From: Enterospora canceri
Lineage: Eukaryota > Microsporidia > Enterocytozoonidae
Direction of reading: 5' to 3'
Length of the DNA: 12,723 bases
Assembly: GCA_002087915.1 (NCBI GenBank)
Contig: LWDP01000081.1
Span: 1 to 12,723, forward strand
Shown here: one piece after another, positions 12,463 through 12,723 of the stretch
Numbering within the stretch: position 1 is the first letter of the stretch
Layout: each line of letters starts with the position of its first letter
Made by a program: the position numbers and the translations under genes
The notes under the pieces: generated by a model
What the model was told of the DNA's origin: nothing
What the model saw: only the letters and a program-made list of their open reading frames with translations
Databases searched by the model: none

Positions 12463-12573
12463 ATGATGGTGGTTATTTGGTCATGTATGCTCTATTTACT
12501 TAGGATTAACTGTGGTGACGATGGTAAGTCGATAATTGAGTCTAAAAGTAGCAAATGTGGACCAAAGTATTAG
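12463..12573 (+). pseudogene. Family paralogue truncated at the terminal TTAG array
   Basis: Two adjacent ATGs (12463 and 12466) open a frame of 36 codons. From the second ATG it aligns codon by codon without gaps to the start of the gene at 7287: 11 of the first 22 residues are identical, including MLY at 8-10 and CG at 16-17 (MLYLLRINCGDDGK against MLYIAMIQCGEDEK). After about residue 22 similarity fades, and the stop TAG at 12571 lies in the first TTAG unit. The signal peptide and promoter are intact but the ectodomain is missing. I infer a family member broken and capped by repeat addition. Confidence 0.6.
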
Positions 12574-12723
12574 TTAGAATAGTTAGTTAGTTAGTTAGTT
12601 AGTTAGTTAGTTAGTTAGTTAGTTAGTTAGTTAGTTAGTTAGTTAGTTAGTTAGTTAGTTAGTTAGTTAGTTAGTTAGTTAGTTAGTTAGTTAGTTAGTT
12701 AGTTAGTTAGTTAGTTAGTTAGT
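12570..12723 (+). repeat. (TTAG)n array at the window end, probable telomere
   Basis: Two TTAG units, a two-base interruption (AA), then about 36 perfect 4-bp units from 12580 to the last base. The G-bearing strand runs outward to the 3' end, which is the orientation of a right telomere. A 4-nt unit with one G is unusual; microsporidian telomeres I know of are TTAGG-like. A plain microsatellite at which assembly stopped is the alternative. Confidence 0.7.

Follow-up and report, generated by a model that had tools for sequence, protein, structure and literature searches.

The window analysed here, a stretch of DNA of 12,723 bases, is the whole of contig C73, so that what ends the window also ends the contig. 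Along it we annotate the following features, the outermost of which very probably form a chromosome end:

7287..8168, + strand, longer relative of the truncated gene below, with a lysine-rich end
9975..11174, − strand, kinase-like membrane protein gene, its frame crossing an N
12403..12462, + strand, upstream (promoter-like) stretch of the truncated gene
12463..12528, + strand, truncated subtelomeric family gene, first ~21 codons, cut by the telomere cap
12524..12573, + strand, ~48-bp telomere-associated element, common to the C5 and C37 ends and diverged at C7 (boundaries approximate)
12570..12582, + strand, imperfect junction TTAG-TTAGAATAG, a variant inner telomere unit
12583..12723, + strand, terminal (TTAG)35 plus T, telomeric repeat array with its G-strand running outward to the contig end

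The array comprises a perfect run of 35 TTAG units (12583-12722) followed by a final T, and Tandem Repeats Finder delimits a tract (12570-12723, period 4, 38.2 copies, 97% matches) that takes in the imperfect junction, whose letters are TTAGTTAGAATAG. The initial annotation had counted about 36 perfect units, which is right to within one, and had correctly noted that reading the array in any of the six frames leads to a stop within four codons. Its description of the region before the array as AT-rich and subtelomere-like, with a multigene family and relics, is borne out by a drop in GC from 0.43 at positions 1-4600 to 0.33 at 6400-12560, by relatives of the 7287-8168 gene on C67 (69%) and on C52, C36 and C8 (37-40%), and by the stretch at 6480-6800, which looks like a relic because it matches only residues 288-396 of a 416-aa gene on C37 (48% identity). 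Furthermore, where that annotation had considered a gene broken by the array, the cap, meaning the 48-bp element plus its repeats, does truncate a family gene at 12463-12528, which shares 11 of 21 residues with the beginning of the 7287 gene (E 9e-07 in a single comparison). Upstream stretches similar to that of the truncated gene precede or overlap the family genes at window position 7287 and on C8, C67, C36 and C52. A conserved stretch (TTGCCCCTGTAATAT and its neighbours) is found at window 12403-12523, 6974-7054 and 7230-7344 as well as on C8, C67, C36 and C52, and, lying at the start of several subtelomeric family members, may be their promoter.

The kinase-like gene carries HNG in place of HRD and DFD in place of DFG (read by eye), and its predicted product is probably inactive, a pseudokinase. 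C28 carries a copy of this gene that shows no difference over 88 + 147 residues before it breaks off. Four single Ns in the window each lie between perfect or near-perfect direct repeats of approximately 256, 300, 93 and 300 bp (6804-7314, 8759-9357, 10817-11001 and 11564-12164, respectively); as the C28 copy is without the 93-bp duplication, these flanking duplicates look like unmerged contig overlaps rather than biology, and, being probable assembly artefacts, they make copy numbers and frames across the Ns untrustworthy. Elsewhere, a cluster of TTAGGGTGAATA-like repeats at window 3047-3148, just upstream of a minus-strand gene (2220-2996), is perhaps a promoter-side repeat rather than a telomeric one, and GGG-rich repeats are also present at the C19 and C33 ends. 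Rfam and tRNA scans of the window gave no matches.

A microsporidian SSU rRNA model yielded one full-length match (1210.7 bits) on C2, 8 kb off the contig end, among the best 5 of 48 candidates. Of 14 prokaryote genomes used as controls, 9 also score above the cut-off of this model, which therefore does not by itself name the phylum, and protein evidence weighs more for the placement of the organism. Among organism-named microsporidia, two Enterocytozoonidae, Nucleospora cyclopteri and Ecytonucleospora hepatopenaei, have the SAR1 proteins nearest to the one encoded in the window (72-73% identity); the others reach at most 55%, and further relatives, outside the organism-named set, 77%. A 27-row SAR1 tree groups the window with the two Enterocytozoonidae at a weakly supported fork (85/0) of this one gene. 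Judging from these sequences, we conclude that the genome is microsporidian and belongs to Enterocytozoonidae or lies close to it; its nearest organism-named SAR1 relatives likewise place it within Enterocytozoonida.

The genome set searched comprised 2,242,678 bases in 75 contigs, the shortest of which, C72, measures 10,026 bases, smaller contigs having probably been left out. A search with five TTAG units returned 57 matches, all of them outward and within just four arrays, while the reversed control returned none; since 200 first-order Markov simulations of window positions 1-12560 also gave TTAG runs of two units at most, a chance origin of the array is excluded. The perfect runs measure 35 units plus T on C73, 16 on C5, 12 plus TT on C7 and 10 on C37. 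A three-unit search placed 65 of its 69 matches in the same four arrays, the other four equalling the control count of 4. The C37 run stops on the last base of its contig, and those of C73 and C7 stop one and two bases short, inside an incomplete unit, with the G-strand running 5' to 3' outward in all four. We scanned 150 contig ends, taking 1500 bases for each of the 75 starts and at least 200 bases for the 3' ends and covering the outermost 220 bases or fewer, and runs of at least three TTAG units were confined to four of them (4/150), the arrays being short at 10-35 perfect units. Random placement of four arrays in the outermost 215 bases would have a probability of approximately 4 in 100 million, a hand calculation that ignores assembly breaks at repeats. 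The outer arrays are pure TTAG, without TTAGG, and a TTAGG telomere in this genome was rejected, as (TTAGG)3 with one mismatch gave one match against four in the control; nor did any unit recur at several contig ends among the 25 strongest tandem repeats listed.

On C5, the array is followed by 151 bases that are 100% identical to C37:3896-4046, and the identity extends over six further, telomere-like bases, CTAACT, giving 157 in all before the two sequences part. The simplest reading is that this overhang is probably a false join at the short match; a true internal telomere is a less simple one. Other scaffold ends and internal arrays, whose inspection the initial annotation had proposed as a check, thus present four of four arrays at contig ends and outward, one with a probable chimeric overhang. 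Arrays lying mainly inside scaffolds, which that annotation would have taken as a refutation, are not what is seen, and this lends support to its suggestion of a four-base telomere repeat, although a contig end need not be a chromosome end.

All four ends feature a similar element of ~48 bp directly inside the TTAG repeats. The C73 element is identical to that of C37 (50/50) and nearly so to that of C5 (49/50), and the diverged C7 element scores 14.5 against C5 (best of 2000 shuffles, 11.0) and, by a narrow margin, 12.5 against C73 (shuffle best 12.0). The C73 and C37 ends are 98% identical over 198 bp and, by eye, differ farther inward. A fifth, internal copy of the element at C28:28200-28249 has no TTAG array and sits behind the C28 copy of the kinase-like gene, which breaks off just before it. 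On C73, the order is the upstream stretch of the family gene and its first ~21 codons, then the element. Counting the truncated family gene on C73 and the truncated kinase-like gene on C28, there are two sites at which the cap sits on a broken gene. We propose a model where telomerase would add TTAG from a complementary RNA template, where a POT1-type protein would bind the telomeric single strand, and where recombination would swap ends among subtelomeres and thereby carry the cap, the 48-bp element with its TTAG, from one end to another. A cap moved in this way would now lie on the truncated family gene in C73, and an array-less relic of one behind the broken kinase-like gene of C28. As for the one-G unit, it would probably have been inherited from an ancestor within Enterocytozoonida, via loss of a G from TTAGG.

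To the protein side of this model belongs a POT1/CDC13 domain (PF02765) in a 322-aa frame at C36:24440-25408, recovered at E 2.7e-9 in the genome search and E 5.4e-9 at the protein level, with 36.4 bits against a curated cut-off of 29. A large protein search gave no relatives of this frame at E <= 0.001 among 840 candidates, and a comparison by sequence with the PDB gave no meaningful relative (best E 0.9). A candidate single-strand end-binding protein of the POT1 type is thereby present in the genome. For telomerase reverse transcriptase (TERT), the RBD family PF12009 reached at best E 0.053 and 14.4 bits in the 2.24 Mb, in a 291-aa gene that looks unlike a reverse transcriptase and was rejected, and the TERT_C family PF21399 gave no match in the same set. 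A telomerase RNA template, at 6-9 bases, would be too short to stand out from chance matches. The reverse-transcriptase family PF00078 identified four loci, on C16, C58, C39 and C2, all of which were set aside as retrotransposons. These three families are what could be held to favour real TTAG telomeres maintained without telomerase, through subtelomere recombination, as could the sequence that ends such as those of C73 and C37 share. We nevertheless consider such maintenance very unlikely: the silence is not evidence of absence, because TERT may be encoded on contigs below 10,026 bases, which the set probably lacks, and because PF12009 matched in no control genome and its silence says little; in addition, Microsporidia sp. 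MB, which has the same repeat, is reported to have a TERT (PMC13174016).

Real telomeres also account better for the genome-wide pattern than breaks of a short-read assembly at an internal TTAG microsatellite, in which case the four ends would not be chromosome ends. Contigs do break at repeats, the C19, C31 and C9 ends also carry other short tandem repeats, the assembly is visibly imperfect, with single Ns between perfect duplicates, and C5 continues for 151 bases past its array. Breaks of this kind should, however, leave opposite, CTAA-outward flanks, of which the longest at any of the 150 contig ends is two units (flanks on small contigs falling outside the set), and a microsatellite would be expected in either orientation and inside contigs, which the TTAG arrays are not, no array of at least five units being found in the 2.24 Mb beyond C5, C7, C37 and C73. 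One flanking element common to four arrays would also be unexpected for random microsatellites, and related species have TTAG telomeres according to two reports (PMC13174016, PMC12449221), all of which renders assembly breakage highly improbable. An origin of the array as the repeat tail of a non-LTR retrotransposon, whose 3' end would be the shared 48 bp, is scarcely tenable and was rejected. A truncated LINE with such a tail would likewise show a short common sequence ahead of a simple repeat, and LINEs are reported to adjoin the TTAG telomeres of MB (PMC13174016). In the 10 kb covered around the sole LINE found, on C2, however, neither two-unit words of the array nor words of the element have an exact match, no TTAG array lies on any of the four contigs with reverse-transcriptase loci, and by eye all copies of the element start at nearly the same base, unlike 5'-truncated LINEs. 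We are thus highly confident that the C73 TTAG array is a genuine microsporidian telomere, from Enterocytozoonidae or near that family.

The inner edges of these telomeres are less regular than their outer parts. Between element and array, TTAGAATAG occurs once in C37 and C73 and twice in C5, and the C7 junction consists of four TTAGAATAGG units plus one TTAGAATAG; genome-wide, the pattern TTAGAATAG(N)TTAG matches nine times, always at one of the four telomeric ends, against one match for the reversed control. Read by unit length, C7 starts innermost with four 10-mers, TTAGA-ATAGG, continues with a 9-mer, TTAGA-ATAG, and passes into pure TTAG, while the 9-mer is found once each in C37 and C73 and twice in C5. 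The unit TTAGAATAGG is TTAGA plus ATAGG, each half one base off TTAGG, and is reached by three edits from (TTAG)2 and by two from (TTAGG)2; given a TTAG start, the chance that a random second half comes so near TTAGG is close to 2% (calculated by hand). Both the edit counts and this chance favour fossil TTAGG units in a suggestive manner only. The variant units lie at the inner edge of all four ends and never outside, a position that fits old material and fits an amplified local variant too. That the inner telomere edges preserve a switch from a five-base to a four-base repeat, with the variant units as worn TTAGG and the cap later moved among ends, is a reading we offer tentatively and regard as rather doubtful. 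If true, loss of a G from the template would have sealed worn TTAGG units in, the switch would be readable directly at chromosome ends, and the moving cap would have cut off subtelomeric genes on landing.

Away from the ends, 27 internal bases at C68:6316-6342, between two converging genes and beside a gene that by eye is Myb-like, read TTAGG-TTAGA-TTAGG-TTAG-TTAG-TTAG. They may be an old telomere relic or chance, the 15-mer part of the motif being below control (1 vs 4) and similar motifs occurring between genes here.

Telomeres of the same unit have been described in relatives. Microsporidia sp. MB (Mrazekiidae, clade Enterocytozoonida, 9.16 Mb) has TTAG telomeres at its chromosome ends, 1.3-7.1 kb long and often LINE-flanked, with TERT reported as present and CST and shelterin as missing (PMC13174016). 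It resembles the present genome in its 4-mer, its clade and the repeats beside its telomeres; here, by contrast, a POT1-domain gene was found and a TERT was not. Glugoides intestinalis, also of Enterocytozoonida and likewise with a TTAG 4-mer, has rRNA genes next to the telomere at many ends (PMC12449221), whereas here the 48-bp element flanks four ends, joined in C73 and C37 by a gene-family piece, and the single SSU match (from the best 5 of 48 candidates) is the one on C2, 8 kb from a contig end. Encephalitozoon, Ordospora and Vairimorpha carry TTAGG telomeres (PMC10158259, PMC12449221, PMC10759460), that is, a 5-mer with two Gs, of which this genome has no array; Encephalitozoon resembles it in having telomere-associated repeat elements inside the telomere. 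Nosema muscidifuracis, with composite TAGG/TTAGG telomeres (PMC11592040), is comparable as a microsporidian that has a four-base unit and mixes repeats of four and five bases, but its TAGG keeps two Gs and its TTAGG is interspersed, whereas here TTAG is pure outside and variants occur only at the inner edge. For Enterocytozoonidae, no telomere repeat is stated in the accessible portions of the literature searched, which include PMC2607024, PMC12558613 and PMC12134460 and lie mostly outside subscription papers.

With this kind of telomere already published in two related parasites, ours is not a first report of TTAG; new, as far as searched, are the family in which it occurs, the junction anatomy, with units that may be worn TTAGG, the POT1-domain gene, the shared cap element and the cap-truncated family gene. 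TTAG in one more family is in keeping with a single, early shortening of the repeat in Enterocytozoonida. With MB reported to lack shelterin and CST, a POT1-type gene in another lineage with TTAG suggests that this end-binding protein did not have to be lost for the four-base repeat to arise. To our knowledge, ordinary stacked G-quartets are not expected from a unit with one G, and TTAG species would on that account be natural tests of the need of capping for G-quartets. In fragmentary assemblies from Enterocytozoonida, the repeat could also be used to mark chromosome ends.

Finally, the retrotransposons set aside above show some structure of their own. The C16, C58 and C39 frames match reverse transcriptase, RNase H and an integrase-type zinc-binding family (on C39, the last falls below its curated cut-off), making three such frames in only 2.24 Mb of genome. 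The C2 locus (C2:52000-61999) is, by eye, a LINE whose frame of 1518 aa contains an X at an N between duplicated pieces. This frame starts ~0.7 kb past the SSU rRNA gene, so that the element may lie inside the rDNA unit in the manner of R-type elements.
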